A stretch of DNA of 64,000 nucleotides from a virus. Below are positions 11,431 through 63,205 of this stretch, piece by piece. The translations under genes were made by a program, and so were the position numbers. Numbering within the stretch: position 1 is the stretch's first letter; every line of letters starts with the position of its first letter. Location: positions 124,001-188,000 of IMG/VR virus record IMGVR_UViG_3300021364_003460. One strand, written 5' to 3'. The notes beneath the pieces were generated by a model. That model was not told where the DNA came from. It searched no databases and saw only the letters and a program-made list of their open reading frames with translations.

Positions 11431-12009
11431 TTAAAGTTTTAATAATAGTTGGAATATAGAAGTTTTATCAAGTATGTCACTCTTAAATATGGGTGTAAAG
11501 TAAGAAGCCCAATACAAATTCCCTTGGGTTTCTACAGATGTAGGTAGATACCTAATTTGCCCTTCAGTATCAAAAGTAATATCTTTAAACAACCCTACTG
11601 CTCTAAAGTTTTCTATATTAGCAAAAGTCAAATCACTCTCTTCAATTAGTATTCTAAAGTAAAGATAATCTGGAGATATTGCTTCTAAAGTTTCTCTATT
11701 AGTAGTTTCTAAGTTAATAAGACTTAATTCTTCATTACCTATTACTTCACCACAACTTTCAAACTGAACATTACCACATTGACTTTTAGTTGCTAAAGTT
11801 TGAAATATAGGTTGTTTATATAATTTGATATCTGGGATAGTAGTTATAGTTTCTTCAGGAGCAGGAGGATTTTCTTCAGTTATATCAGTACCCCAACTAC
11901 TATCCCAAGCTGTATCTTTACCTATAGCAAAGAAGTAAGTTGAATTTACTAAGTACAGTAGTCTATCTACTTTACTAATAGTAGTATTTATATTTCTAAA
12001 TATTGCCAC
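11431..12009 (-). CDS. putative baseplate-wedge protein, gp8-like pattern (192 aa)
   Basis: Residues 27-60 read FAIGKDTAWDSSWG, then acidic and proline-rich NPPAPEETITTIPD. This resembles the opening of T4 gp8-type wedge proteins and related virion proteins (FGRxxPW, then PP and P). The C-terminal half (YLYFRILIEESDL, then YFTPIFKSDILDK) is beta-rich. The gene overlaps the flavin oxidoreductase gene by 14 nt and lies 1 nt from the large DUF4815 gene, so it is in the same transcript. A structural role is likely from context; the wedge assignment is tentative. Confidence 0.45.
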   Translation of the reverse strand: MAIFRNINTTISKVDRLLYLVNSTYFFAIGKDTAWDSSWGTDITEENPPAPEETITTIPDIKLYKQPIFQTLATKSQCGNVQFESCGEVIGNEELSLINLETTNRETLEAISPDYLYFRILIEESDLTFANIENFRAVGLFKDITFDTEGQIRYLPTSVETQGNLYWASYFTPIFKSDILDKTSIFQLLLKL

Positions 12010-13117
12010 GCTCTATATCCTCTATAATTTCTTTAGCTGTAATACCTGCTGATATTAAAGAATGCTGTCTTGGTCCATCATAAGCAGTAGCTAGTATACC
12101 TGATACATACCAGTTGGCATTAGGATAGTTAACTTTAAAAGTATCAGTAATATCTGGAAAATTAGCTATGTAAGAATTAGTATTTACTTCTACAGGTAAT
12201 GAACTTGAGTTAGGAATCAACCCAGTAACTAAACTAATATAGTCAATCTCTGCATTAATAACTTCAGAATAATCTCTTACTATTACTTTATTAAAGTTAG
12301 TATCTTTAAGTTTAGCTGCTATATAAGGAGTGATAGAAGGCTGCCATTGTTTAACTTTAAATAAGTAATCTAATCTGTCTTTATAAGTATTTAGACTTCT
12401 ATAATAACTACCTAATGCTGACTTAGTACCCCATTCTCTATAGTTAGGAGCAGGATACTGATTTACTTTAGGTTCTTTTTTAATAACCCAAGTCACCTCA
12501 CCTTTTAAGTCACTACTAAAATAATTAACTTGTTCAGCAGCACCTTGACCTGACCCTAACACTAACCATTTCTTATTAAAGTAATCTTCAGGTTTTTGTA
12601 ATACAGTATTTAATTTAACTAATTTATCTTTTAGATTAGTATTCTTAATCCAGTTAGGTATATTATCTTTACCTTTATATCCAGTGCAGAATACTACAGC
12701 ATCTCCTTTTATAAACTTACCATTAGCTAAATTAACAGTATTACCTTCTACAGAAACTACTGTTTGTTTAATTAACTTTATCTTTTTATTAATAAGATAA
12801 CTTAGTACCCATTCAAGATAGCTACAGAAATCCTTTCTCTTAACTTTAATATTACAAGATTCTATAGCTGCCTGACTGTTAGTAAAAGGTAAATTGTAAT
12901 CTAGATACTTACTCAGATTAAACTCTTGAAGCTCTTCTAAATAGGTTACTAAATCAAAAGTAAGTGGACTTCTCATTTCTAAATCTTCTATTAAGTAATC
13001 AGAAGTCCAAGTATGTAAAGGTAAAGGGTCTATTAAAGTAACTTTATGTCCTTTATATAAAGCATATAAAGTTACAGATAACCCCCTTGGTCCAGCTCCT
13101 ACAATAGCAATCTTCAT
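11996..13117 (-). CDS. FAD/NAD(P)-dependent oxidoreductase, N-hydroxylating monooxygenase-like
   Basis: The N terminus KIAIVGAGPRGLSVTLYALY carries a Rossmann dinucleotide-binding GxGxxG motif at 7-12, typical for FAD. A second nucleotide motif GSGQGAAE lies near 201-208, typical of the NADPH site of group-B flavin monooxygenases. VVFCTGYKG near 140 and SLVTGLIPN near 290 correspond to the (A)TG motifs of lysine/ornithine N-monooxygenases and the NAD_binding_9 family. At 373 residues it is slightly short for SidA/IucD enzymes. It would be a soluble redox enzyme with no obvious virion role. Yet it overlaps both neighbours (4 nt and 14 nt) and sits between a fibre gene and a wedge-like gene, so it belongs to the late transcript. 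The substrate is unknown; modification of a tail protein or a host metabolite is conceivable. Confidence 0.75.
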   Translation of the reverse strand: MKIAIVGAGPRGLSVTLYALYKGHKVTLIDPLPLHTWTSDYLIEDLEMRSPLTFDLVTYLEELQEFNLSKYLDYNLPFTNSQAAIESCNIKVKRKDFCSYLEWVLSYLINKKIKLIKQTVVSVEGNTVNLANGKFIKGDAVVFCTGYKGKDNIPNWIKNTNLKDKLVKLNTVLQKPEDYFNKKWLVLGSGQGAAEQVNYFSSDLKGEVTWVIKKEPKVNQYPAPNYREWGTKSALGSYYRSLNTYKDRLDYLFKVKQWQPSITPYIAAKLKDTNFNKVIVRDYSEVINAEIDYISLVTGLIPNSSSLPVEVNTNSYIANFPDITDTFKVNYPNANWYVSGILATAYDGPRQHSLISAGITAKEIIEDIERGNI

Positions 13118-41970: not shown

Positions 41971-42456
41971 ATGAGGGGACCACTTCACCCAACTAGGATT
42001 GATATACCTTTAGAAACTAGAATTAAAGTAATAAATGAATTAGGAGTATTATTAGCTTCCTGTTCAGATATGTATGCACAAGCAAAGCAAGCTCACTGGA
42101 ACATTAAAGGTAGTAGATTCCAAATGTTACATGAGCTATTTGATAAGGTAGCTGAACCTTTCCCAAGTTATGTAGACGCTTTAGGAGAAAGGATAACTGC
42201 ATTAGGGGGCACTGCTATGGGAACTGTTAGGATGGCGGCTATTTCTAGCATCCTTCCTGAGTTCCCATATACTGAGTTTTCTGAAGAAACTTATCTTGAT
42301 GCTATTGCTAATAGACTAGCTATTATGACAAAAGCTTTTAGAGAGAAAGGTAATATTATTAAAGAAGCAGGAGACCCAACTACAGAAAACTATCTGTTGG
42401 AGACTGCTATGGAAATAGATAAATTATTGTACTTTGTAGAAAGTCATCTGAATTAG
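41971..42456 (+). CDS. dps: Dps ferritin-like protein
   Basis: Dps proteins form 12-mers that oxidise and store iron and protect DNA from oxidative damage. The 161-residue sequence keeps all inter-subunit ferroxidase residues at the standard spacing: H42, H54, D58, D69 and E73 (AHWNIKGSRFQMLHELFDKV, then YVDALGERITALGG). The later helices match too (NYLLETAMEIDKLLYFVESHL). It is intact and likely active. The gene lies on the opposite strand to the late operon, followed by a terminator hairpin, so it is expressed independently. It is probably a host-derived gene that protects phage or host DNA in photosynthetic cells. The start has only a weak ribosome binding site. Confidence 0.93.
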   Translation: MRGPLHPTRIDIPLETRIKVINELGVLLASCSDMYAQAKQAHWNIKGSRFQMLHELFDKVAEPFPSYVDALGERITALGGTAMGTVRMAAISSILPEFPYTEFSEETYLDAIANRLAIMTKAFREKGNIIKEAGDPTTENYLLETAMEIDKLLYFVESHLN

Positions 42457-45468: not shown

Positions 45469-48400
45469 ATGCAAGAACCATATAATTTTGAAGGGATATT
45501 TAAAAGTAGAGACAATGATAGTAAACCTAGCTTTCTAAGAGATGTAGTTAGGTTACACACTCATAACTCTATGGAAGGTAATAAAGACTTTATCTTAGAT
45601 AGGGAAGACCAGTTTGAAGGTTTCTTTTCTAAGAACTTTCAAGACCAAATAGAACAAAGAAGTAGAAACTTAGATTACAACAATAGAGAAAGGCTGACTA
45701 GAGAAGCTGTCTTTGAGCATGCTAATTACAGTTTTACAAGTAAACTACTTAACAATGCTAATGGAGTTATGGGAAGAATGTTTGCTTCTTTTGAGACTCC
45801 TAACTTGTTTGATGACTCTGATGAAAGTGAAAGGTTTGGTAGGGAGACTTTACATGAGTTTCTTAATATACTAAAAGAGCCTGATGATATTAGAGAAAAG
45901 AGAATTAAAGAAAGTGTAGCCCCCAAACCTATAGCTGAAATGAACTATAAGTTTGATAACTACATTAACAGTAATATTGAGAATGCTGAAAATGCTAGTA
46001 GACATATCAATAAAGATATTAGAGACTTTACTAATAGAGTTAATGCTCAAGACAGTATTATCAACTATTTTACTAAAGGAGGACAAACTAGGTCTGTTAA
46101 GTTACTAGATAATGTTGGATACATCAACAGACCTGGTATTCTGCCTGCTATAAGTATGATTCATGATGCTGAGAGTGAGTTATCTATTAATATCTTCCAG
46201 CTACAAAACAAACCTATTATTGACTATCTAACTTCTGACTTAGTTAACAGAGCAGAAGAGATTAGAAAACAAAGAAGACAGGGTGTTCAAGTTGATAACT
46301 TTAAATTCAGACTACAATTAGCTTGGAATGAAGAGTTAGCTAATGATGCTGCTGGTTACAATATCCTTGGACCTAACTTAACTGCTATTAGAACCTTTCA
46401 GAACTTAGCAACTAAGTATGCTGATGCTTTAGATATTACTGTGCAAACACTAGATAGAAGAAATCATACTAAATTAATATTCAGTGACCAAGGGGCTTAT
46501 ATCTCTACACAAAACCAAACTGCTCCTGTAGGTAAGTCACTGTATCAAGCTGGTAGTAACTATGAATCAGGTAGGTATGTTAGAAATCTACAGATTACTC
46601 AAGATAGTACAGTTAGTGAAAGAGGTGAAGCTAAACTCTACCAACAGGTAAAAGAGTTGCAAACTAAAATGTTTGGGCAGCAAAAGCTACTGCAAACTAA
46701 TCAACCTAACATTAGTGGACCTGTAGAAACCTATGAGATGATGAGGTCTTCTTTAGATTACCTACAAAAGAATAAAGGTAAAGGAGTTAAAGCAGACTTT
46801 ATATTAGACCAAGTATTTCTCCTTCAATATGACAGTATGTTGTTTGATAAAGTTGCTGAAGGAGAAATGGGTCCTGAGTCTAAAGGTACTATAAAGAGAG
46901 TAATAACAGACTTAGATAAAAAGAAAGCTAAATATAGAGCTGATATACAAGAACCTTTAATGCTGGCTCTTATAGAAGGTAACGCTCATGTTACTACTGA
47001 TGTTAGAAATTTTAAGCAAAATGTTCAAGAACCTATCTATACAGAGTTAATGAAATTAGATAGCTTTAGAGACAGTGGCTATAACTTAGATACCTTCTTA
47101 AATGATGATATATCTTTACCTACTGAAGAGAGAATTAGACGAGTAGAGGCTAAAGTAGGTAGTAGAAGTAGAGCTATCCAATTGTTAGCTATGACTTCTG
47201 GTAATATCCAAACAGCTAATGTACCAAGGCAGCACGTTAAAGCCAGTTTACTATACAGAACAAGTCCTAATGGTATTGAAGGTATAGCTGGTGAACTAAG
47301 CAGTTCTAACAGAGGTTTATACTCTATGTCATTAGTAGATAGTGACTTTGAAAGAGATATGACTAACAATGAGTTAGGTATGATGTTCTACTCAGAAGAC
47401 TTTGCTAAGGGACTTAAAGTGACTAAGCAAAGTCCTTACTCTTTAGAAAGTAATGAGGTTACTGAAGAGTTACAGGAATACACTAAACATTACATTTCTA
47501 TGAAGTCTGATTTGTCTACAAGAAGAGTAGGTCAACTTGAGTATAGTAATGTTAACAACAGAGCTGAGTGGGAAAAGGATGTAGATAGAAAGAAACTAGC
47601 AAACTTGTTTGATAGCTTAAATGAGATGAACAAGTCTACTGGTGGAGATGCTATGAAAATTAGCTATGACTATGATAGCAAAGGTCCTATTTCAATCTTA
47701 GTTGACTTAAACAATGGCTTAAAGTATAGGTTTACTGCATTACAAGGTGGAGTTAATAACCAAGGTTTTATCTATGAAATTAACAAGTCTAAAGTAATAG
47801 GTGAATCTGACTTTATTAACCAAAGTTCAGAAAGTATTAGAACTAGCTTTACTGATAATGGTAATCCTTTGTTTATAAAAGCAGGTGAGAGGTTAACTCT
47901 AACTCCTATACAAACTACTATGTCTATGATTAGTAGTATTAGTTTAGAGGCTTCTCAAATAAGGTTAATCAGAGCACCCTTAATAGAATACCAAACTCAT
48001 TATGCTCCAGGTGCAGAAGGTAGTGATAATTTTGATGCTGGTATCTCAAGGTATTTGTTAGCTTTATCTGGTTATAGTGATAGAGGTGTTACTGATGTAC
48101 TTAGCATTGACCAAGGTTCTATTATCAAAGGTGCATTAGAGAACTTACAACTAAGGATGCGTAATAGTGATGCTACCTTAGATAAAGTTAGACAGTTTGC
48201 TGGTATAGATATTAATAATGAAGATAGACAAGCTAAACTACAATATCTAACTGATTTGATTCAAGTCTTTGGTAGTGTAAATGCTAATGATAGAAGACTG
48301 CTAATTACTGGAGAAGGCTTAGATGGCAGACAGAGTTTAAAGAGATTTATGTCTTCTCTGTTTAGCAGCCATGAGTATGCTGATGTACTTTATGACTTTA

Positions 48401-51400
48401 TCCAATCTCAAGGAGACCCATTATACCAGCAAGCTACAGCTAATTATGTTAAAGAAGTAAGTAGTAGAGTGTTTGACCCTTATCTTAACAGAACTCAGGT
48501 TAGTGTATATGGTTCTACTCAAGCATATAGACAAAGACCTCTTTATGGTGTTAATGAAAGAAGAACTGCCTTTGGTAGAGGAGTTAATAATGCTGCTCTT
48601 AGTAGTCTACAAGGTATGTTTAGATTAGGAGGCTATGCTTTAGCCGCTTCCCCCTTTGACCATAATGCTACTGCTGACTTTGGTACTGACTTTAAAAATG
48701 GTAGTCTGCTCTTTATTCAGATTACTGGTACTGGAGGTAGTAGAGAAAAGTCAGGTTTAGAATACTCTGGATATAATGAGTATGATAACTTGTTACCTTA
48801 CTATCAGCATAAGAAGATAGGTACTGCTACAGGATTAGATATTATACAAGATGCTGGAGTAGGGTCTATTATAGATAAACAAAGTGTAACTGACTATAAT
48901 AAGGCAATCGCCCACTTAGGACTTACTGTAGATTCAGATGACTTACTGCAAGGTAATGACAGGATGTTGCTCTTTAACTTTGATGTTAAAAAGAAAGCAT
49001 CTCAGATACCCCAGCGTATTAAGAATGTTATTGGTAGTAGACCTACTATGGAACTTACTACTCAACTACAAGAATTAATAGAGTTAGGTAGCACCAAGTT
49101 TGCAGGTCAAGACATTAATAATATAGAAGCATTAAGGTCATCATACTTATCTAATCTTAGAAATAGAGTAGGAAATAAAGCTAACCTAATCACAGATATG
49201 TATGCTGTAGGTATAGAGTTTGGTGGACAGATTAGAGCTACCCTTAGTAATGATGTTGCAGAAGTTTTAGAATCTATTAGAGAAGATGTAAACACAGAGT
49301 TTGAAGGTGTAGATGAAGATACTAAAGCTGAAATATTAAGAGTTAGATTACTAAATGCAGACTTATCAGGGCATTCTATTAGAAGCTTTACAGGTAGTTC
49401 AAAAAGAACAGGAAACTCATTTGTACTATTCCAACTTAGTGGAGCTTACTCAGATTACTCATTCTTAAACCCTGAGTTTGGCAGCACTGATACCTTAGAT
49501 GGGATGCGAACTGGGTTTGCTGATAGAGCGGTTAAAGGTCATCAAGCTAGTAAGTTAAGTAGTCAAAGGTTGTTAGGTGCAGAAGGTGACTTTAACTTAG
49601 CTGATGAACTGCTTATCAAATCAGGTAGCTATATTAAGAGAGATAAAGAGACAGGTTTATTTCATGTGTTCTCTTTTGATGAATCTCAGAATACTTATAT
49701 TAGAGGGCAAGCTATCAGTTCTAGAAAAGAGTTTACTGTAGTTAGAAACCTGTTAGAAGCTGTTAAAGCAGAGCCTTCAATAGGTAGGTTAGGGGCAGTT
49801 AGTAATGCTGCTTCTTTTGAAGGAGAAATGGCTATAGAAATCCTTAGAGATGTAAGAATATTAGAAGGCGAAGTTACCTCTAATGAAATCAGAACTGAGA
49901 TAGATTACATAAGAACTGGTAGAAGAGGTGGTAGTGCTAGACAGGAATCTCTATCAGGAGGACTAGCTAAGATGGTTCCTATTTACCTTTATGATGTAGA
50001 CAATACTGAGAGAGGTAAAGGTTTACTCAGGCAAATGTTTGAACAATTTGAGAGAACATCAGGAAGAGTTGGTTCATTTGAAGGTGCAGGTAAACTAAGC
50101 TATAGTCAGTTTTATGGGGTAGTTAACCCAAGTAACCTTAAATCTTACTTCTATGAGCATGGTGCACAGATACTAATAGATAGTAAGAAGAAAGCTGCAC
50201 TATTAGGTACTGACGGTAAAACATTAGCTGCTGCTTTAGTAATGTCATTTGGTACTAGTAGATTTGCTAGTGGAGATAGAAATGGAGTATTAACTCAGTT
50301 AGCTAAAGTTGCTGGGAAAGGTCAATTAGGTCAGTTTTATCAAGACCAATATTTACTAAGCTTTTTACAACATAAAGGAGATGTTACTAAAGTTGGTGAA
50401 GGGTTTATTAATAGCTTTGTTGATAAGAAAACTAAAACAGAAAGTATATCCAACCTTCAAGTTAGAGCATTAGAATACATTGGTTTAGATTTAATCAGAG
50501 ATGCTCTAACTGGAGCAAATCCTAATGCAGCTAGTGAAATTCAAAAGAGAGTAACAGACTTGTTAACTGACACTACTGGGGTAGTAGGTAAAGAGTACCT
50601 TAATACAGGTAAAGATAGAGGTAGAGAGATGGCTATTATAGCTGCCTCTTTAGACTACTTTGTACAGTTAACTCAAGCACAGGCTCATGATATAGCAGTA
50701 GTAAATACTACTAAAGATAGGTCAGCTTATTTGTCTTTAGGAACTATTGGAGGCATGAGCTATGAAGAATTAATTGAGAGAGAAAATGAAGGATTAAATC
50801 AACTAGTCAACCAATTAGGTAGAAGGTCATATACAGTTGGTATGTGGATGAGTTTATCTGGCTCTCAAAGTAAAGTAGCTATATCTAGTAAACTAGAATC
50901 CTTTATTGAAACTCAACATACTATCTTTGAACCTTTCTACACTAACTTAACTAAGTTTCAGAAAGGTGGTTCATTAGACTCACTTAGACAACTAATGGCA
51001 GGTTTCTATGGAGCTATGGCTGGTACTCATACAGGTGAGTTTCTTAATGCTATGTCTGGATTACAGCAAATAAACTTACTTGATACTAGAAACCCTATCT
51101 TTGCTTCTAAAATGGTTGGTTACTATAATGACCCCTTTACTTCAGATGCAGAGTTTAAAGAGTACCAAAGAAATTATGAAATGTTTGGGGTGCTGCAATC
51201 TTTAGTAAGTAATGAGACAGGAGACACTATTAATGCAGCTTTACTAAAGAAAGTAATAGAAAAGTATAGAAAGAATGCTGATGGATTAGACCTAAATCCA
51301 GATACCTTAAATACTGAACTTAGTAACCTAATAGAAGCTGCTGAAAACAACCAATTAGGTAGAGTACAAGAAATCATTAATCAAGGTTATGAGTACAGTC

Positions 51401-54400
51401 TTTACCACTTTGAAAGAATGTATGCTGACTTTAGATTAAATCCTGATAAAGGAGATGCTAATGCAGGTCAAGCTATCTCTACAGGTTTACAAAGAAGTGC
51501 AGGAGCTAAAGGTAGGTTTGCATTCACTTTACCTGTAATGGAGTTTAATGATGATGGTAGTATTAAAGTTTATAAGAATAGTTTACAGAGAAGTTTCTCT
51601 CTAGCAGGTGAAGATTTAAAGATTATTGGTGAAAGCTTTGGTAACGTAGATGCTCCTATTCTTAAATCTCAAGCTATCTTATGGCAAGCATTCTCTCCTA
51701 ATAGTGCAGTAAGCAGGTTATTAGATAGAATCAATGATGGTAAGTCTATTAGTGAAATAGATGTTAGTGTAGAAGATTATGAAGAAATTATGAGATTCTA
51801 CATTACAGCTATTAATATGCCTGTTGAGATAACAGAGGCTGTAGGTGTCTATGGTAATAAAATACTAGGTAACAAAATAGGGTTTGCAGGAGGTACTACT
51901 ACACCAGCAGCTTGGTTTATGGGAGGTACTCAAATGAGTATTCTACCTGAAACTATTATGGAGAGACATGGTGCTGGTAGTAGTAATAGGAGAGATGCTT
52001 ATGATAAAGTGTTGCAGCAGATTAAAGGTATAGATGAAACTTCTCAAACTATTTCTAATATAAGTGAAGATAAAAGAAACTTACAAATACTCAAAAAGTA
52101 TTATTCTAATAGATTTGTAGACGCTGCTGAAAGAACCCCTTTAATCCAGGAAACTAAATCTAAGCAATACTTAACATATCTTGCTAGAACTCTTAACAAA
52201 GGTATATCAGCAGCGTCTACTTCTGAACTTAATTCATTAATTGAAAAGAGTAAAGAGTTTCAAGAGAGATTAAGTTTAGCAGGTAATAATGAACTTGAGC
52301 TTAATAGAATTATTACTGAAATAGAAGGTGGAATTTCTAATGAATCTAAATACTCTATTGCTTACTACAGAAGAAGACTTCAGATTACTAATGTAGATGA
52401 TAAAGAAAGGTTTGGAGTTAACTTAAATGAAGGTGGAGATCCCTTTGTTGACTTACTAGGTTTATATGAATTAAGAACTCTTAGGGCAGCAGCTATTAGT
52501 CAAGGAGGTACTTCTAGTAGGCTTAATGGTGAAGCTTTAGATAAAAGTCTAGAATTTGCTGAAACTATGAAGCACTTTTACTCTCCTTTTAGAGGATTAA
52601 TGATAGGTTCTCAAGCTGATACTAATCTACCTAAAGTTACCCCTGAAGAAATGGCACTTGAAATGAGAAGAGGTGCTAGTAAGTTAGAGAAAGCATTAGG
52701 TCTTAACTTTGATTCCATTAGCGGGTTAGAAAAAACAGCAGGTAAAATTTACTTTGAGAAAGTAATAGGTAATATAGAAAACTTTGCTAAGGAAAGAATA
52801 GATGAGTTACAAAATAGATATAACTCAGAAGTTAATGGTGAGTTAGCTGAAGGTACTATAAAACGACTACAAAAAATGATAGCTGATGTCAAATCTTATG
52901 GTAATAGATTAAGTGACGACATGAGTGAATATGATGTTAGAGATATAGCTTTATTACTAACAGGTGAAGTTGAGAAGTACCATGCTGAAATTAACTTAGG
53001 TATTACTCAGTCAATGAGACCTTCTCCTATGGGAGGTTCTTACTTAGGTAGAGCAGTCTATGACACCTTTGGATTAGGAGATGTTAATAGATTAATGAGA
53101 AGCTGGGAGCTACCTATTAGCTTTACTCCAGGTGGACAAGAAGATGTAGACCACAGAAATAAGACTCTTCACTTGTTTAACCCTTATAGCTGGTTAGTCA
53201 GTCACCTTGGAGACTTTGATGGAGACATGATAACTAATATGTTCAGAACTACAAGTCAACTAGACTTGAGAGTGAGAACTTATGATGCTTCTATTGCTGC
53301 TGCTAAAGAAGAATTAATATTACTAGGAAATAAGATAAATGCTACAGTTCCAGATACAGAAGACTACACTAAGTTAATTAAAACTAAAAGTGATACTGAA
53401 GATAGAATAGTAAACCTTGAGAAACAGAAAGCTGAGTTTAGTAGACTATCTCAGCAAACTAAAGACAACACTACTTATAAAGAATATCAAATAGCTGCTG
53501 CTAAGTGGGTTGGCAACTACCTTAAAGTAGACTATAGAATGTTTCTAGATGAAAAACATGGTGGTTACAGATTAGAAAGTCAAGGTAATGTACCTCCAGA
53601 AGTATTGTTTACTTACACTGAACAAGGTAGAGGTTTGTTTGGTGGGATGGAAGCTATTGTTACTAAGTCAATGGATTTGTTTTATGACTTTAGAAAGTTA
53701 GCTGAGAATAAGTTGACTCTACAGACTTGGGGAGACGTACAGAATAGATTAGATAATCTTAATGATTCTGGTTTAAAAGAACTAATACAAAAAGGTAATT
53801 TACCAGATGAACTTAGGGATGAAATCATTAGATTAAGTAGTGACTTTGAAGGAGACACTTTAGGTAGAGATGCTGCAATAGCTGAATATGTAGCTAGGTT
53901 ATACAGTAGCCAATCAGGTTTAGAAACCTTACAAAAATACAACTTAAAAGGTATTGATGGATCCGCTATGACCCCTGACATCTTCATGGCTATGGAGAAT
54001 ACTTTAGGTCAAGCAGGTTCAGTAGTGTTAGGTAAATCATACAACACAATGGTTGGTATGTTGTATACTGAGTCTCCTAACTTAGCTTTAAGTTATGCTT
54101 TACTAAATGACCCCGATGAGAAACTCCAAACTATTGTCAGGGAAGCTTATGGTGGTGGAGATATAGGTTTAGCTAAGTACAATGAACTAAAAGATGCTGC
54201 ACAGCATAGCTTCCTTAAATCTCAGCAGATGGGTGAGTTTCTACAAGCTACTCAACAGATACTTAGAGATAGTATTAAGCCTAAAGATGCTGCTTTGTTT
54301 ATTAAAGAGTTAGAAGAAGCTTTATTGAAGTATAGAAGTATAGAGGATGCTGATAAGAAACAGGAAGCTTACACTGAAATAGTTAACAAGTTTGGTCCAG

Positions 54401-56493
54401 GTAAAGGTTTAAAAGCTCTTATTCAAATGGAGTCTTTAGTACAAGATTTAACTATACTTAATAATCAAATTAAAGATGACAATAAAGACCTACAATTACA
54501 GAAAACTTTAGAGAAGTATGAGTTAACTGATACTAAGAAAGAAGAGTTATTAAAGAGGCTAGGTTATGATGAAACTACTGGTGATTATGATGTTTTCAGA
54601 GAAAGAGATGCTCAAGGTAATGTAATTGGCAGAGGATTCAATCAAAACATAGCTGCTGCTCAACTCACTAAAGAGTACATAGTAGCAGCTTACAAGACTA
54701 AACAAGATATGGTATCTGTGGTCTCTGACTTTGCTTACAGTAAAGGGCTAAATGATGGAGACTCTACAGGTAGAAGTATGTTGTCTTCTTTTAGAGAAAA
54801 CTTTAGTAAGTTTGATTCTACAGAGCAAGCTAGAATTACTAAGTTAGTACAAGCAGCAGATTCTTATTTTACTGGAGGTGCAGACTTAGTTGGGTTAGCT
54901 GATGCTGAAAGTCAAGCCTTTATTGAAGCTTTGATAGATAGAGAGAACCAGCATAGGTCTTCTTATGTTGATGAAGAAGGTAAGTTTGATAGAAAAAAAG
55001 CTAAAAAATGGTCTTGGACAACAGAAGACTATGAAGGTAAAACTGCTCAACAAGAAGAAGATTATTATAAGAAACTATATGAAGCTCACGTTTATGCAAC
55101 TACCTCTGATGCCTTTGGTAAGACTGTAGGTGACAATGGTGAAATGTTTATTAGGTTTGCTCAGTTTAACCAAGCTAGAAGAGATGTATATAGTGATAAC
55201 CATTGGAGAGATACTGCTACTGGATTTGATATATTAAGTGACCCTCTAGCTATGGCTGAGATGTTAGGTATGGTATCAGGTAAGGTTACTCCTGAGTTCA
55301 TAGGTAAAGCTATGAGAGTAGTAACTAATGCTGTTAGACAAAAAACTGGTGAAGCTAATCCTAGTTTAGAATCTATTACTAATGTAATCTTACAGGGTAC
55401 TAGCATGAGTGAGACTCCTGAAGATAGAAAGATGAAGGAGATGTTTGCTTTTGTTCAGTCTAAAGATAAGAGTGCTACAGAGCTATTAATGCAGACTGTA
55501 GAGAGCATGGCTTTAGGTAATATGTCTGCTACTGCTAAGGAGTTCATACAAAGAGGGCAGTTTGATAACCAAGAAAACTTAACTCAAGCAGTCTTAAAAG
55601 AACACTTCTCTAAGATGGGATTTGATGCAGATGAATCTAATCTATTAGCTAACAGAGCTACTATGAGAGTTACTCAAGGTGCAGTAGCCCAAGTAGAAGC
55701 TAAGAAGATGATGGACAGAAACCAAATGGTTAATGTAATAGGTAGTCTTGGTAAAGATGCTGATGTGAAGGCTCAATCATTTATCTTTCCTGCATTAGGT
55801 CTCATAGGAGCAGCATTAGCTAGTGGTGACTTATCTCCAGAAGCCTTCCAAGTGGCAGCAGGTACAGCACTAACCAACTTAAGTTATGTAAGGTGGAATA
55901 ACCTTGAAAGTAATTTCAAAGGTACTGCTATGAATATGATTGGAGGTGGTGCTTTCAAGATGAGGTTAGCTCTACAAGAAAATGAAGGGGATGCAGGTAA
56001 AGCTATAGTCACTATGGCTACTAGAGAGTTAATAATGGGCAGTACAGCAGCTATAGTTAACAAATACGGCAGTGAGTATATTAATAAAGCTTTAGGGGGA
56101 ATTAAGACTTTAGACTTTGATAGGTTTGAGTCTGCTAGAAATGTGGCTACCTCTACTATAACAGCAGTGGCATCTACTCTATTAGGTATGATGTTAGGTA
56201 ATGGAGTGTTAGCCGCTGGAAAAATTATTAATAATGAGATTAATGAATCTGAACAAATAGTTAGTAAGATTAACCAAAGTATTCAACAAAGAGTATTCAA
56301 TCAAGCTGCTGTTGAAGAGGAAGAAGAGTTAGCAGTTGAAGGGGATGGTGAATTCTTAGAATACAAAACTGTACATAACTGGGGAGAAGAAACTGATGTG
56401 GATTACACTACAGAAGAGTGGAGTATTAATGAAGAATTTAATTATGCTTTCAATAACACTCCTGTAGGTATGTACGCATTTGAACTTACTTAA
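45469..56493 (+). CDS. giant virion RNA polymerase-like protein with N-terminal PLD nuclease domain (3,674 aa)
   Basis: Near the N terminus is a phospholipase-D-like domain: AISMIHDAESELSINIFQLQ at about 226-245 and RNHTKLIFSD with a complete HxK(x)4D motif at H333, K335 and D340, then GAYISTQN. A single HKD motif suggests a dimeric nuclease. At 2582-2586 lies DFDGD in the context HLFNPYSWLVSHLGDFDGDM, the metal-binding signature of the beta'-type double-psi barrel of multisubunit-type RNA polymerases. Upstream, YGNKILGNKIG (K2131, K2136), then MSILPETIMERHG, resembles the beta-type barrel lysines and following segment (GNKG, then RMNIGQILETHLG). Two hydrophobic segments lie near 3440-3460 and 3560-3585. 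Such size and motif recall crAss-like virion polymerase gp66 and, in size, N4 vRNAP. I infer a virion-packaged, injected polymerase, possibly doubling as tape measure. The start has only a weak ribosome binding site. Confidence 0.65.
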   Translation: MQEPYNFEGIFKSRDNDSKPSFLRDVVRLHTHNSMEGNKDFILDREDQFEGFFSKNFQDQIEQRSRNLDYNNRERLTREAVFEHANYSFTSKLLNNANGVMGRMFASFETPNLFDDSDESERFGRETLHEFLNILKEPDDIREKRIKESVAPKPIAEMNYKFDNYINSNIENAENASRHINKDIRDFTNRVNAQDSIINYFTKGGQTRSVKLLDNVGYINRPGILPAISMIHDAESELSINIFQLQNKPIIDYLTSDLVNRAEEIRKQRRQGVQVDNFKFRLQLAWNEELANDAAGYNILGPNLTAIRTFQNLATKYADALDITVQTLDRRNHTKLIFSDQGAYISTQNQTAPVGKSLYQAGSNYESGRYVRNLQITQDSTVSERGEAKLYQQVKELQTKMFGQQKLLQTNQPNISGPVETYEMMRSSLDYLQKNKGKGVKADFILDQVFLLQYDSMLFDKVAEGEMGPESKGTIKRVITDLDKKKAKYRADIQEPLMLALIEGNAHVTTDVRNFKQNVQEPIYTELMKLDSFRDSGYNLDTFLNDDISLPTEERIRRVEAKVGSRSRAIQLLAMTSGNIQTANVPRQHVKASLLYRTSPNGIEGIAGELSSSNRGLYSMSLVDSDFERDMTNNELGMMFYSEDFAKGLKVTKQSPYSLESNEVTEELQEYTKHYISMKSDLSTRRVGQLEYSNVNNRAEWEKDVDRKKLANLFDSLNEMNKSTGGDAMKISYDYDSKGPISILVDLNNGLKYRFTALQGGVNNQGFIYEINKSKVIGESDFINQSSESIRTSFTDNGNPLFIKAGERLTLTPIQTTMSMISSISLEASQIRLIRAPLIEYQTHYAPGAEGSDNFDAGISRYLLALSGYSDRGVTDVLSIDQGSIIKGALENLQLRMRNSDATLDKVRQFAGIDINNEDRQAKLQYLTDLIQVFGSVNANDRRLLITGEGLDGRQSLKRFMSSLFSSHEYADVLYDFIQSQGDPLYQQATANYVKEVSSRVFDPYLNRTQVSVYGSTQAYRQRPLYGVNERRTAFGRGVNNAALSSLQGMFRLGGYALAASPFDHNATADFGTDFKNGSLLFIQITGTGGSREKSGLEYSGYNEYDNLLPYYQHKKIGTATGLDIIQDAGVGSIIDKQSVTDYNKAIAHLGLTVDSDDLLQGNDRMLLFNFDVKKKASQIPQRIKNVIGSRPTMELTTQLQELIELGSTKFAGQDINNIEALRSSYLSNLRNRVGNKANLITDMYAVGIEFGGQIRATLSNDVAEVLESIREDVNTEFEGVDEDTKAEILRVRLLNADLSGHSIRSFTGSSKRTGNSFVLFQLSGAYSDYSFLNPEFGSTDTLDGMRTGFADRAVKGHQASKLSSQRLLGAEGDFNLADELLIKSGSYIKRDKETGLFHVFSFDESQNTYIRGQAISSRKEFTVVRNLLEAVKAEPSIGRLGAVSNAASFEGEMAIEILRDVRILEGEVTSNEIRTEIDYIRTGRRGGSARQESLSGGLAKMVPIYLYDVDNTERGKGLLRQMFEQFERTSGRVGSFEGAGKLSYSQFYGVVNPSNLKSYFYEHGAQILIDSKKKAALLGTDGKTLAAALVMSFGTSRFASGDRNGVLTQLAKVAGKGQLGQFYQDQYLLSFLQHKGDVTKVGEGFINSFVDKKTKTESISNLQVRALEYIGLDLIRDALTGANPNAASEIQKRVTDLLTDTTGVVGKEYLNTGKDRGREMAIIAASLDYFVQLTQAQAHDIAVVNTTKDRSAYLSLGTIGGMSYEELIERENEGLNQLVNQLGRRSYTVGMWMSLSGSQSKVAISSKLESFIETQHTIFEPFYTNLTKFQKGGSLDSLRQLMAGFYGAMAGTHTGEFLNAMSGLQQINLLDTRNPIFASKMVGYYNDPFTSDAEFKEYQRNYEMFGVLQSLVSNETGDTINAALLKKVIEKYRKNADGLDLNPDTLNTELSNLIEAAENNQLGRVQEIINQGYEYSLYHFERMYADFRLNPDKGDANAGQAISTGLQRSAGAKGRFAFTLPVMEFNDDGSIKVYKNSLQRSFSLAGEDLKIIGESFGNVDAPILKSQAILWQAFSPNSAVSRLLDRINDGKSISEIDVSVEDYEEIMRFYITAINMPVEITEAVGVYGNKILGNKIGFAGGTTTPAAWFMGGTQMSILPETIMERHGAGSSNRRDAYDKVLQQIKGIDETSQTISNISEDKRNLQILKKYYSNRFVDAAERTPLIQETKSKQYLTYLARTLNKGISAASTSELNSLIEKSKEFQERLSLAGNNELELNRIITEIEGGISNESKYSIAYYRRRLQITNVDDKERFGVNLNEGGDPFVDLLGLYELRTLRAAAISQGGTSSRLNGEALDKSLEFAETMKHFYSPFRGLMIGSQADTNLPKVTPEEMALEMRRGASKLEKALGLNFDSISGLEKTAGKIYFEKVIGNIENFAKERIDELQNRYNSEVNGELAEGTIKRLQKMIADVKSYGNRLSDDMSEYDVRDIALLLTGEVEKYHAEINLGITQSMRPSPMGGSYLGRAVYDTFGLGDVNRLMRSWELPISFTPGGQEDVDHRNKTLHLFNPYSWLVSHLGDFDGDMITNMFRTTSQLDLRVRTYDASIAAAKEELILLGNKINATVPDTEDYTKLIKTKSDTEDRIVNLEKQKAEFSRLSQQTKDNTTYKEYQIAAAKWVGNYLKVDYRMFLDEKHGGYRLESQGNVPPEVLFTYTEQGRGLFGGMEAIVTKSMDLFYDFRKLAENKLTLQTWGDVQNRLDNLNDSGLKELIQKGNLPDELRDEIIRLSSDFEGDTLGRDAAIAEYVARLYSSQSGLETLQKYNLKGIDGSAMTPDIFMAMENTLGQAGSVVLGKSYNTMVGMLYTESPNLALSYALLNDPDEKLQTIVREAYGGGDIGLAKYNELKDAAQHSFLKSQQMGEFLQATQQILRDSIKPKDAALFIKELEEALLKYRSIEDADKKQEAYTEIVNKFGPGKGLKALIQMESLVQDLTILNNQIKDDNKDLQLQKTLEKYELTDTKKEELLKRLGYDETTGDYDVFRERDAQGNVIGRGFNQNIAAAQLTKEYIVAAYKTKQDMVSVVSDFAYSKGLNDGDSTGRSMLSSFRENFSKFDSTEQARITKLVQAADSYFTGGADLVGLADAESQAFIEALIDRENQHRSSYVDEEGKFDRKKAKKWSWTTEDYEGKTAQQEEDYYKKLYEAHVYATTSDAFGKTVGDNGEMFIRFAQFNQARRDVYSDNHWRDTATGFDILSDPLAMAEMLGMVSGKVTPEFIGKAMRVVTNAVRQKTGEANPSLESITNVILQGTSMSETPEDRKMKEMFAFVQSKDKSATELLMQTVESMALGNMSATAKEFIQRGQFDNQENLTQAVLKEHFSKMGFDADESNLLANRATMRVTQGAVAQVEAKKMMDRNQMVNVIGSLGKDADVKAQSFIFPALGLIGAALASGDLSPEAFQVAAGTALTNLSYVRWNNLESNFKGTAMNMIGGGAFKMRLALQENEGDAGKAIVTMATRELIMGSTAAIVNKYGSEYINKALGGIKTLDFDRFESARNVATSTITAVASTLLGMMLGNGVLAAGKIINNEINESEQIVSKINQSIQQRVFNQAAVEEEEELAVEGDGEFLEYKTVHNWGEETDVDYTTEEWSINEEFNYAFNNTPVGMYAFELT

Positions 56494-59146: not shown

Positions 59147-59758
59147 ATGAAATATAAGTATCCTAGAACCCCTCACTTACCTTTTAGTCCTGGTGCTACT
59201 TCAGATGACATCTTTAGTACAACTAACTTTAAAGGTAGGGAGATAGTTATTACTGAAAAGATGGATGGTGAAAACACTAGTCTTTATTCTAATTACTACC
59301 ATGCTAGAAGTATTGATAGTAAGCATAATGAGTCTCAATCTTGGTTAAAGAACTATCACTCTCAGATAGCTTATAAGATTCCTCAAAACTGGAGGTTATG
59401 TGGAGAGAATCTTTATACAGTCCACTCACTTTCTTATACTAACTTAAAGAGCTATTTCTTACTATTTAGTATATGGGAAGAAGAACTATGTTTAAGTTGG
59501 CAGGATACTGTAGACTTTGCTAGTGAATTGGAAGTAATTTTAGTTCCTGTACTTTACCAAGGTGAGTATAGTGAAAAGCTAGTTAAAGAGTTAGTGGCTA
59601 GTTTAGATTTGACTAAACAAGAAGGAATTGTAATTAGAATAGCTGACAGTTTTAAGTATAGTGAATTTAGTAACTCAGTAGCTAAATGGGTTAGAAAGAA
59701 TCATGTAACTACTGCTAATCACTGGAAACAAAGTAAGCTAGAACTAAACACTCTCTGA
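59147..59758 (+). CDS. RNA ligase (nucleotidyltransferase family)
   Basis: ATP-dependent RNA ligases seal RNA nicks or breaks through a lysyl-AMP intermediate. Motif I KMDGEN gives catalytic K38. Motif III is LCGENLY with E87, IIIa is FLLFSIW at 104-110, motif IV is EGIVIR at 159-164, and motif V is KWVRK at 180-184. All are in order and properly spaced. At 203 residues it is a minimal catalytic core like the small phage/DRB0094-like ligases, without a C-terminal specificity domain. It could repair tRNA or other RNA cut by host defence nucleases. It is divergent from the PAAR cluster and converges with the gene after it (15-nt overlap). Confidence 0.9.
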   Translation: MKYKYPRTPHLPFSPGATSDDIFSTTNFKGREIVITEKMDGENTSLYSNYYHARSIDSKHNESQSWLKNYHSQIAYKIPQNWRLCGENLYTVHSLSYTNLKSYFLLFSIWEEELCLSWQDTVDFASELEVILVPVLYQGEYSEKLVKELVASLDLTKQEGIVIRIADSFKYSEFSNSVAKWVRKNHVTTANHWKQSKLELNTL

Positions 59759-60940: not shown

Positions 60941-61303
60941 ATGATAAAACAAGTAACTTTAACTAGAAAACAGTATGACTTTGCTTCAAAAGAGTATACT
61001 AACTTAGAAGACATAAGTGACTGCTCTATTAAATTCTATAAAGATAATGAGGGCATAAGGGGTGCTGACTTAAAAGTACCTGTCACTACTCTTTTGAGAG
61101 AAGATATTAAAGAATATAAATTAGGTTACTTAAGGCTTCTTGGTAGTGTAGATAAGTTTAGCTTTAGTTGTACTATAGAAGATACTTATTATCTTTTTAG
61201 AAGGGGTTTACTAGAAAGTATAGAAGATAATACAGCTCTCTCTGACAAGAGAGATTCTTTAGCTAACTTCTTTTTTATTGATGACAGAATAACAATAATA
61301 TAA
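60941..61303 (+). CDS. hypothetical protein (120 aa)
   Basis: Unrecognised. Charged, mixed helix and strand (TLTRKQYDFASKEYTNLEDI, then YLRLLGSVDKFSFSCTIED). No membrane segment or signal. It is the last rightward gene before the 450-bp gap. The opening TLTRKQYDFA resembles small phage regulatory proteins but no family can be named. Confidence 0.5.
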   Translation: MIKQVTLTRKQYDFASKEYTNLEDISDCSIKFYKDNEGIRGADLKVPVTTLLREDIKEYKLGYLRLLGSVDKFSFSCTIEDTYYLFRRGLLESIEDNTALSDKRDSLANFFFIDDRITII

Positions 61304-61753
61304 TGAATAAACCTTACTGTAGTAAAAGATATGGAGGAGGGTATTTGAGATATGGTTGAGAGAAAGTGTTAGGTGGAGAGTTGGGTTTACTATATCTTTG
61401 AGAATACCAGTTTTTGTGATTCATAAGGTACTTATATTAATAAAGTATAAATTTATTCAGGAGGTATCTTAGGAAAAGGATGAGAGGACTAAAAAGTATA
61501 TAGGGTAAGGGTTCTAGCTATTTATTGAATAACCTATATCTCTTACTTCATATTATCTTCCTCTTATTAGTCTCCTTACCTATAGTCCTCTCATACCTGT
61601 CCTCTTAGTCCTAGCTCCCTCATCTCAGTCTCCTATAAGTCAGTTAGCGCAAAACAGCCATTTCAAGACTTAACAGAAATCCTTTAACTCTAACTTGGTA
61701 TACTTTAACCCTGAAGATTCTCTAGCATAATCAATAGCTAATAACAAACTTTG
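61304..61753. other. 450-bp non-coding convergent gap with strand-composition switch
   Basis: No convincing gene. The left part (to about 61500) is purine-rich on the plus strand (GGAGGAGGG, GAGAGAAAG, GGTGGAGAG). The part after about 61540 is pyrimidine-rich (CTTCCTCTT, CCTCTCA, CTAGCTCCCTC). An 11-bp perfect inverted repeat pairs TGAGAGGACTA (61481-61491) with 61583-61593, and ATATAGG (61498-61504) pairs with 61533-61539. It lies next to the PrimPol/Rep gene. Possible roles are bidirectional terminator, structured RNA or replication origin. Confidence 0.5.
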
Positions 61754-63205
61754 TTATCCTGTATCACCCCACTTAATAGTGAAAAGGTATGATACAGGAT
61801 CTTTCTTATTTAGCTGGGTACTGTAGTTAACTTCTAGCCCCTTAACTCTAATCTTAAGCCTAGTAGAAGGAGTCTTAACTTTAAATCTTGTATCATACCT
61901 TTTCACTATTAAGTGGGGTGATACAGTTAACTCTTTATTAGGCTCTTCAACCTCAGAGCATTCACTTACAGCAGCCTCTTCTAGAGGACTAACAGAAGTT
62001 AAGCCATTAAGAGTTAGTAAATCCTTATGTTTACTAATAGAGTTAATAGAAACCCCAGCTTCTTTAGCTAACAATCTATAAGTTACTTTTACTCCAGATT
62101 CTTTTAAGTTAACTAAAGCTTCAGCTATCTTAGCTCTAATCTCCTTTAACTTAATTAAATTCTTATTCTCTTCTTCAGTCTTTTTAACATAAGTTTTCTG
62201 ATTGAGTGAACCTAAAGGTCTATATTTCTTCCAAGCACACCTAGCCCACTCTGTACATCTCTTTACTATTTCCTTTTGATGGTTACAAAATTGTTGATAT
62301 CCAGGTAGAGTAGTAGCTGTTTCAATTACCATAGAAGCCAACTCTTCAACTGAACTAGCTTTAGTAAATATTCTATGTAATGCAGCTATATCTCCTAAAA
62401 TATCATTAGTCTGGGATTTAGCAGTCCAACCTTCCTTTAATGTGGCTTGAAGGTTGTTATACCAATTAGTTGACTTTTGACCTTTAGCTGTAAACCCACT
62501 TTTATTATTAAATTGATTATTACTTAACTTCCTGCTTTTAAACCAACTTCTAGCCTCTTCACTATAAGATTCAAACAAGTCAGCATCATTTGAGTTAGCT
62601 GCTTCTTCCCAGTCTAATAAGAACCAATTTAGCTCATCTTTATTAGACTCAAATCCTGCTTGAAGAGGAAGTCTATGAGAGTTATATTTACTATTCCAAC
62701 TTTTAGTATTAGGGAATATCTCTAGCTGTCCTTTAGCAATCTCAAATCCAGCAGTAGTCAAAGCTTGAGTCAGCACTACAGCCACAGTCCAAGTAGATAT
62801 CTCTTTATTAAAAGGTATATACCCATGCCATCCTTCAGAACCAGAAGACTTATACCAATTAACTTGATTAATACCTACTTTAGTTAAAGCATCTTCAACT
62901 TTAATAATCTGATAATGAGGGTGATACTGAGAATCTACATCTATGTCTATAAGAGCATATTTAGTATTTTTACCAAAAGTAACTCCTACAAACTTATTAG
63001 GATTCCTCCAATTGATAATTAACTCTTCATTTGTTAAATACTTTTGAGCAGTAATCCAGCTAACTCTTGTGCCATCTAAACTACCCACTCCTATGATAGG
63101 GTCATATCTATAAGGGAATAGCTCAGTAAACTTATCTTGTAAAGTAGGAGTGTAGATTTGCTTAAATAGTTCTGTTAATTCTCTTTCCTGAAGTTGAATA
63201 CTCAT
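61754..63205 (-). CDS. PrimPol/AEP-type Rep-like protein with C-terminal HTH (483 aa)
   Basis: The N-terminal 200 residues match archaeo-eukaryotic primase-type polymerases used as replication proteins in plasmids and phages. Motif I is LIDIDVDS with D87, D89 and D91. Motif II is SSGSEGWHGY with H127. The following LEIFPNTKSW and HRLPLQAG correspond to the motif III region. The C-terminal region near 350-400 (IAEALVNLKESGVKVTYRLL, then AKEAGVSINSISKHKDLL) is a helix-turn-helix. It likely primes or initiates replication. The last 50 codons contain a 38-nt element twice in opposite orientations. Three GTTATAAT repeats lie just upstream of the start. Confidence 0.8.
   Translation of the reverse strand: MSIQLQERELTELFKQIYTPTLQDKFTELFPYRYDPIIGVGSLDGTRVSWITAQKYLTNEELIINWRNPNKFVGVTFGKNTKYALIDIDVDSQYHPHYQIIKVEDALTKVGINQVNWYKSSGSEGWHGYIPFNKEISTWTVAVVLTQALTTAGFEIAKGQLEIFPNTKSWNSKYNSHRLPLQAGFESNKDELNWFLLDWEEAANSNDADLFESYSEEARSWFKSRKLSNNQFNNKSGFTAKGQKSTNWYNNLQATLKEGWTAKSQTNDILGDIAALHRIFTKASSVEELASMVIETATTLPGYQQFCNHQKEIVKRCTEWARCAWKKYRPLGSLNQKTYVKKTEEENKNLIKLKEIRAKIAEALVNLKESGVKVTYRLLAKEAGVSINSISKHKDLLTLNGLTSVSPLEEAAVSECSEVEEPNKELTVSPHLIVKRYDTRFKVKTPSTRLKIRVKGLEVNYSTQLNKKDPVSYLFTIKWGDTG
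61759..61926. repeat. 38-nt element repeated in inverted orientation
   Basis: The sequence at 61759-61796 is the exact reverse complement of 61889-61926, separated by 92 nt. Each copy is itself an imperfect palindrome with TGTATCA and TGATACA ends and a CACT-TAAT-AGTG centre. Both copies are translated within the PrimPol gene, one as the segment ending in VKRYDT and the other as SYLFTIKWGDT. Confidence 0.95.

Follow-up and report, generated by a model that had tools for sequence, protein, structure and literature searches.

Why should a primase gene of a phage end in two exact inverted copies of one palindromic element, both of which are translated? The window, i.e., the whole stretch of DNA that was analyzed, comprises 64 kb (bases 124001–188000) of a 190,865-bp IMG/VR record. 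Genes in the window matched phage families for tail sheath, head, and portal proteins, and the capsid protein was 41% identical to that of the Microcystis phages MaMV-DC/Ma-LMM01; the record is a large Ma-LMM01-like cyanophage. GC skew in the window tracked gene direction and did not settle the location of the origin.

Anatomy of the inverted pair

The pair and its immediate surroundings contain the following features:

61741–61757, unstranded: perfect 17-nt palindrome (ATAACAAACTTTGTTAT), adjoining copy 1 just downstream of the stop codon
61756–61800, unstranded: copy 1 extended, with perfect 11-bp terminal arms; overlaps the stop codon; single-stranded DNA (ssDNA) fold of −11.7 kcal/mol, z −4.8
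61759–61796, unstranded: element copy 1, in the orientation opposite to copy 2
61797–61888, unstranded: 92-nt spacer, which with both copies can fold into a large stem-loop with a stem of about 38 bp
61889–61926, unstranded: element copy 2, ancestral by context; exact 38-nt partner of copy 1, with a match in a cyanobacterial integrative element

A sequence-only reading of this DNA had described exact inverted 38-nt copies, near-palindromic with TGTATCA...TGATACA ends and both translated, and each of these statements was confirmed. The copies are reverse complements at 38 of 38 positions across a 92-nt gap, and both lie in the coding frame of the minus-strand open reading frame (ORF) 61754–63205, at residues 427–439 and 470–483. 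Read on the minus strand, 61889–61926 is CTGTATCACCCCACTTAATAGTGAAAAGGTATGATACA, and its exact reverse complement lies at 61759–61796. When one mismatch was allowed, the copies extended to 42 nt (41/42 matching) and the gap shortened to 84 nt. The next exact inverted pair by length in the whole window is only 18 nt, and just two other exact pairs, of 16 nt each, have partners less than 100 nt apart; therefore, the 38-nt pair is far beyond chance. The palindromy of a single copy is unexceptional: extended copy 1 has perfect 11-bp arms (ATCCTGTATCA...TGATACAGGAT), and several 11-bp and two 16-bp arms occur in the window. That is, the remarkable feature is the inverted pair and not the palindromy of one copy. 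Folded as a single strand, the pair formed one stem of about 38 bp with z below −10 both as RNA and as ssDNA; the single copies as ssDNA gave z values of −4.8 and −2.5.

The search of the rest of the genome that had been proposed in the sequence-only reading was run over the 190,865-bp record at up to 3 mismatches and returned no copy beyond the two. IMG/VR held no exact match to the element, and blastn searches against PLSDB and INPHARED found none. The inverted second copy is thus far seen in one record only. A second, weaker inverted repeat (61471–61491 / 61583–61603, 86%, 91-nt spacer) resembles the main pair and lies in a non-coding stretch downstream of the primase gene. A direct repeat (61807–61832 / 61907–61932, 73%) was judged weak, and an Rfam match to MIR1888 scored under the gathering cut-off and was due to the long stem alone. 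A CRISPR repeat and a DGR hairpin were also considered; the CRISPR repeat was set aside as the element is not in an array.

A primase gene with a disordered tail

The gene that carries the pair was divided as follows:

61754–63205, minus strand: PrimPol (archaeo-eukaryotic-type primase, AEP) gene, 483 aa, from the ORF, its homologues, and AlphaFold model matches
61991–63148, minus strand: conserved primase core and helical/HTH region, residues ~20–405, from similarity to relatives and pLDDT
61757–61990, minus strand: C-terminal tail, residues 406–483, predicted disordered and not conserved as protein

The homologues, 28–36% identical and alignable over residues ~20–410 only, are listed as "hypothetical proteins" on plasmids and chromosomes of cyanobacteria; one is carried by pSYSG. 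Similarity begins at residue ~20 and stops within residues 396–430, and no conserved protein tail was found among the homologues. The AlphaFold model had a pLDDT of 77, high to about residue 405 and below 50 for residues 406–483. As these last residues are predicted to be disordered and hold both elements, the elements lie outside the conserved protein.

In Foldseek, the best matches of the model were the CRISPR-associated Prim-Pol (7nqe, E 9e-7) and RSF1010 RepB' (3h20, E 1.8e-5), with further matches to the LigD polymerase domain and the cyanophage S-2L PrimPol. A sequence profile search also matched LigD PolDom, and Prim-Pol PF09250 matched one homologue below the cut-off. The residues D87/D89, S121...H127, and E162 (D87xD89, SS..xxGxH127, E162) were invariant in 38 homologues; the DxD, SxH-type, and third acidic motifs that define AEP/PrimPol proteins are present together with the fold. 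The invariant motifs and the model matches thereby bear out the PrimPol label given earlier from the letters, and the phage protein is an AEP/PrimPol primase with, as modeled, the fold of RepB'-type primases. PrimPol relatives were absent from INPHARED and IMG/VR at the sensitivity used, and the Ma-LMM01-like phages of the phage collection gave no match to this PrimPol; therefore, it is not the ancestral phage replication gene.

Copy 2 is kept in a cyanobacterial integrative element

A pattern scan of 386 cyanobacterial genomes gave one match (genome G134, locus L103), with 2 mismatches in 37 positions, and a second sample of 388 genomes of the same order gave no other. The shared stretch is:

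61881–61926, minus strand: 46 nt common to the phage and G134, conserved at synonymous sites, including rare codons

G134 and phage copy 2 are identical at 44 of these 46 nt, and the surrounding protein has diverged. The single G134 copy belongs to an integrative element that also encodes a KilAC antirepressor and a tyrosine integrase. The 75-aa ORF containing the copy resembles only the tail of the PrimPol (PVSPHLIVKRCGTRFKI...LRIRLTNLEINY) and has no primase domain. This ORF adjoins a homologue of the phage's neighboring 177-aa gene. The element is kept without the primase domain, which speaks for a role at the DNA level. The common codons include CCC, GTG, and AGG, which are rare in the phage (5.5%, 5.5%, and 13%, respectively). 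Identity at 12 synonymous choices has a log10 P of −6.7 from codon usage alone; this calculation ignores common descent and therefore indicates either constraint or a recent exchange, without singling out constraint. These observations point to copy 2 being a DNA-level element.

Given the protein context in G134, copy 2 appears to be ancestral and copy 1 an added inverted copy. The sequence-only reading had named lack of conservation in relatives as evidence against its proposals; on this point, copy 2 is kept in one cyanobacterial element, whereas the inverted second copy is unique so far. An attachment site was also considered and rejected because the G134 match is set in homologous protein, as an att core would not be. 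Beside the G134 copy, an AT-rich block ending in TGTCATCACTAAC...GGTGGTGACA occurs twice (L103:5975–6353) and is possibly an origin region of that integrative element.

Origin-like cassettes in the gene tails of relatives

An origin-like DNA cassette was found in the non-conserved primase gene tail of approximately 73 of 84 relatives. Class A (36 of the 84 loci; e.g., L016, L053, L063, and L034) is a near-clade by a quick tree. Its tails carry a CAAGCTTATT element, with the motif given as CTACAAGCTTATT. We aligned the 26 of 36 class A loci that had a clear hairpin, which in these loci precedes the motif; all 13 hairpin pairs showed two-sided compensatory changes, and 92% of cells paired. The covariation score of this alignment was 0.874; it fell to 0.209 on shuffling, and slid controls did not exceed 0.21. 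As the loci were picked by motif and visible hairpin, the alignment gives no estimate of how frequent hairpins are among the tails. G-T pairs were rare in the hairpin. Most class A tails also have GGNNGTAAY boxes at +23 and +86 (or +83), 60–63 bp apart, and approximately 15 of the 36 have a DnaA-type box near −83. DnaA-type boxes numbered 49 per 51.7 kb of tail and 13 per 637 kb in the rest of the loci, i.e., they were approximately 46 times denser in tails, a count that near-identical paralogues inflate, as they do not the fixed positions.

Class B (37 loci) has the motif TTACACMCC-N12-ATGAAGKGT, which had no match in shuffled loci. Read backwards, class B shows a DnaA box at −74 to −89, C-runs, the motif, and GGKGTGTAAY. 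This order resembles that of class A; therefore, the cassette appears to be inverted relative to the gene in the sister clade. L092 likewise has a class A-type cassette inverted inside the tail. RNAalifold gave no structure for the class B alignment; thus, we claim the covarying hairpin for class A only.

The class A core occurs in three reading frames (34, 1, and 1 loci), and the cassette crosses or follows the stop codon in L012 and L085, with both boxes after the stop in L085. Together with the inversions, the three frames and the boxes past the stop place the constraint on DNA. A covariance model run over 194 genomes matched strongly five times, in each case in the tail of one of five paralogous primase genes in a single genome, and weakly once. 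None of the Rfam families matched the cassette in the six loci tested. A long-arm inverted-repeat scan of the relatives (at least 16 nt) missed the class A hairpins; its two strong matches, in L024 and L063, were set aside, as they resemble MITE-type repeats that surround the end of the gene or lie beyond it.

Several loci have arrangements of their own. Genome G002 (L112 and L114–L117) has five primase paralogues with one cassette apiece, as though they served several compatible replicons. In L017:6147–6892 and L028, two primase genes, one per class, apparently lie tail to tail with converging cassettes. A Tolypothrix PCC 7601 plasmid (Nostocales; L107:5020–5073) has a perfect 25-bp inverted repeat with a 4-nt loop in the primase gene tail.

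The inverted pair as a candidate replication origin

We favor, with modest confidence, the interpretation that the inverted copies are DNA-level recognition or initiation elements of the phage PrimPol, and that the primase gene, at its 3' end, also serves as an origin or part of one. The likeliest function of the motif is to signal the start of replication from within the gene; a switch or a mobile element is less likely. Among the functions suggested in the sequence-only reading, Rep-binding sites forming an origin at the gene end therefore survive best, by way of the tail cassettes of the relatives and the RepB'-type fold. The anatomy of the pair, the conservation of copy 2 at the DNA level, the PrimPol fold, and the cassettes of the relatives are direct results; protein binding, primer synthesis, and origin activity of the phage element are what we infer by analogy.

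The phage element and the cassettes have only their position and palindromic nature in common. Neither the class A nor the class B cassette model matched the phage element, which has neither the covarying hairpin with CAAGCTTATT and GGNNGTAAY boxes nor the class B motif. No DnaA box lies beside it; at up to 1 mismatch, the site at 61147 is one of 31 in the window. Therefore, the link between phage and cassettes depends on position and general structure, and the functional equivalence of the two, which we infer, is the weakest step of the argument. The occurrence of the inverted second copy in a single record and the lack of a match to this PrimPol in the Ma-LMM01-like phages of the collection also weigh against the origin interpretation.

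One of the closest known systems is RSF1010, in which RepB' primes at ssiA and ssiB, 40-nt hairpins placed one per strand (PMC4434180) and thus inverted to each other; within oriV, RepC iterons accompany these sites (PMC4234260). Like the IncQ oriV, the phage locus combines an AEP-type primase with hairpin elements of approximately 40 nt in inverted arrangement, and the 38-nt pair supplies one copy per strand. Unlike in RSF1010, the phage elements are read as the C-terminus of the primase and no iteron series is evident; the likeness drawn here is one of arrangement. In the Sulfolobus plasmid pRN1, experiments showed that replication needs a stem-loop immediately 3' of the PrimPol replication gene, and phage BIP-1 has a similar stem-loop (PMC4234260). 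However, the pRN1 protein has a helicase domain, which the phage PrimPol model lacks, and its stem-loop is downstream of the stop codon, whereas the phage repeat is inside the coding sequence. By analogy with these systems, the phage pair may offer a PrimPol hairpin on each strand or one large stem-loop. The cyanobacterial plasmid replication context is shared with CyRepA, which has DUF3854/Toprim-like and DEXD helicase domains (PMC10079941), and CyRepX, which has helicase-like similarity (PMC10899382); the phage PrimPol family differs from both in being an AEP primase. The Rep of pSYSG was not identified in either study (PMC10079941, PMC10899382).

We propose that, once the region is opened, the copies would put one primase-recognition hairpin on each strand; alternatively, both copies together would form one large stem-loop. 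PrimPol would recognize the hairpin, perhaps helped by its C-terminal HTH, and would prime each strand, giving divergent synthesis. Copy 2 would be the older element and copy 1 an inverted duplicate that arose at the stop codon, and the disordered protein tail would serve as the carrier of the DNA element.

Alternative explanations

The most serious rival, although we consider it unlikely, is a functionless inverted duplication. In this view, template switching recently produced copy 1 from copy 2 in a tail under low constraint, and a single element may function while the pair does not. The copies are still identical at 38/38 positions, the sole relative of the element has a single copy, the tail is non-conserved and disordered, and copy 1 is located at the stop codon, where a change costs little. 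However, identity of the copies in a fast-evolving tail requires either recency or selection. In addition, copy 1 has extended 11-bp arms and lies next to another perfect palindrome, and the relatives have DNA signals in the same gene tail.

A role at the RNA level, in which a very stable hairpin ending the primase mRNA terminates, protects, or silences the transcript, is improbable. The RNA fold is indeed strong (−84 kcal/mol, z −10.8), and the sense-strand hairpin tolerates both G134 substitutions. Nevertheless, a U-tract is absent and terminator detection was negative. The covarying stem of the relatives has almost no G-U pairs and is placed well within the gene, and the sister clade has the cassette in the opposite orientation, all of which fits DNA better.

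It is more doubtful still that a mobile palindromic element (REPIN-, SDR-, or RPE-like) was inserted twice in the gene. A small palindromic element read in frame, in two inverted units with a spacer of less than 130 nt, does resemble REPINs and other small dispersed palindromes. Unlike REPINs, the phage element is not repeated in its genome, there being no further copy in 190 kb, and no RAYT gene accompanies it. It has one relative in ~390–780 cyanobacterial genomes and no exact match in IMG/VR, RAYT/Y1 transposases were not found, and there is no clear target duplication. Moreover, the homologous protein context of the G134 copy indicates that it was inherited, not inserted. The small mobile element suggested in the sequence-only reading is thus unsupported.

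We give the least credence to site-specific recombination at crossover sites that would invert the 92-bp spacer and switch the protein C-terminus. The inverted sites are identical and have palindromic ends, and another part of the record encodes a large serine recombinase, but the record has no detected tyrosine recombinase, the serine recombinase gene is 66 kb from the repeat, and G134 has one site only. By established knowledge, inversion across ~92 bp is sterically unfavorable, and large serine recombinases use unlike sites (attP × attB), not two identical ones, so that two identical sites with 92 bp between them would suit such an enzyme poorly. The translation given in the sequence-only reading for an inverted spacer, GSFLFSWVL and a stop after RYDT, is correct.

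A primase gene that may carry its own origin

Returning to the origin interpretation, we tentatively put forward a broader proposal: a family of cyanobacterial replicons and at least one large cyanophage may keep the origin inside the coding sequence of their own PrimPol. The cassette (a DnaA box, a covarying primase hairpin, and two boxes about six helical turns apart) would ride on the disordered tail and could be flipped relative to the gene; the phage would have retained the hairpin principle, lost the dependence on DnaA, and gained a second, inverted hairpin. Origins that consist of hairpins and are associated with PrimPol genes are already known. A literature search of open-licence papers did not find an origin-like cassette that is in a primase coding tail, flippable, and DnaA-linked. 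From the cassette of the relatives, the origins of dozens of replicons can be predicted exactly and in testable form; in these, an origin-like signal persists in a protein-coding tail in several frames and both orientations and the annotation shows a "hypothetical protein". If the proposal is true, it would provide new cyanobacterial vector origins and a compact module that unites initiator and origin and travels as a single gene.

Other genes of the phage record were also observed. A 529-aa large serine recombinase (L118:346–1935; record ~118–120 kb) suggests an integrating or lysogenic lifestyle for this Ma-LMM01-like phage. An FAD-dependent monooxygenase-like gene (Lys_Orn_oxgnase) lies amid the structural gene cluster at window positions 11996–13117, and a ferritin-like gene and an RNA ligase gene are at 41971–42456 and 59147–59758, respectively. 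A 3674-aa ORF with zero Pfam matches occupies 45469–56493, where GC skew is strongly positive.
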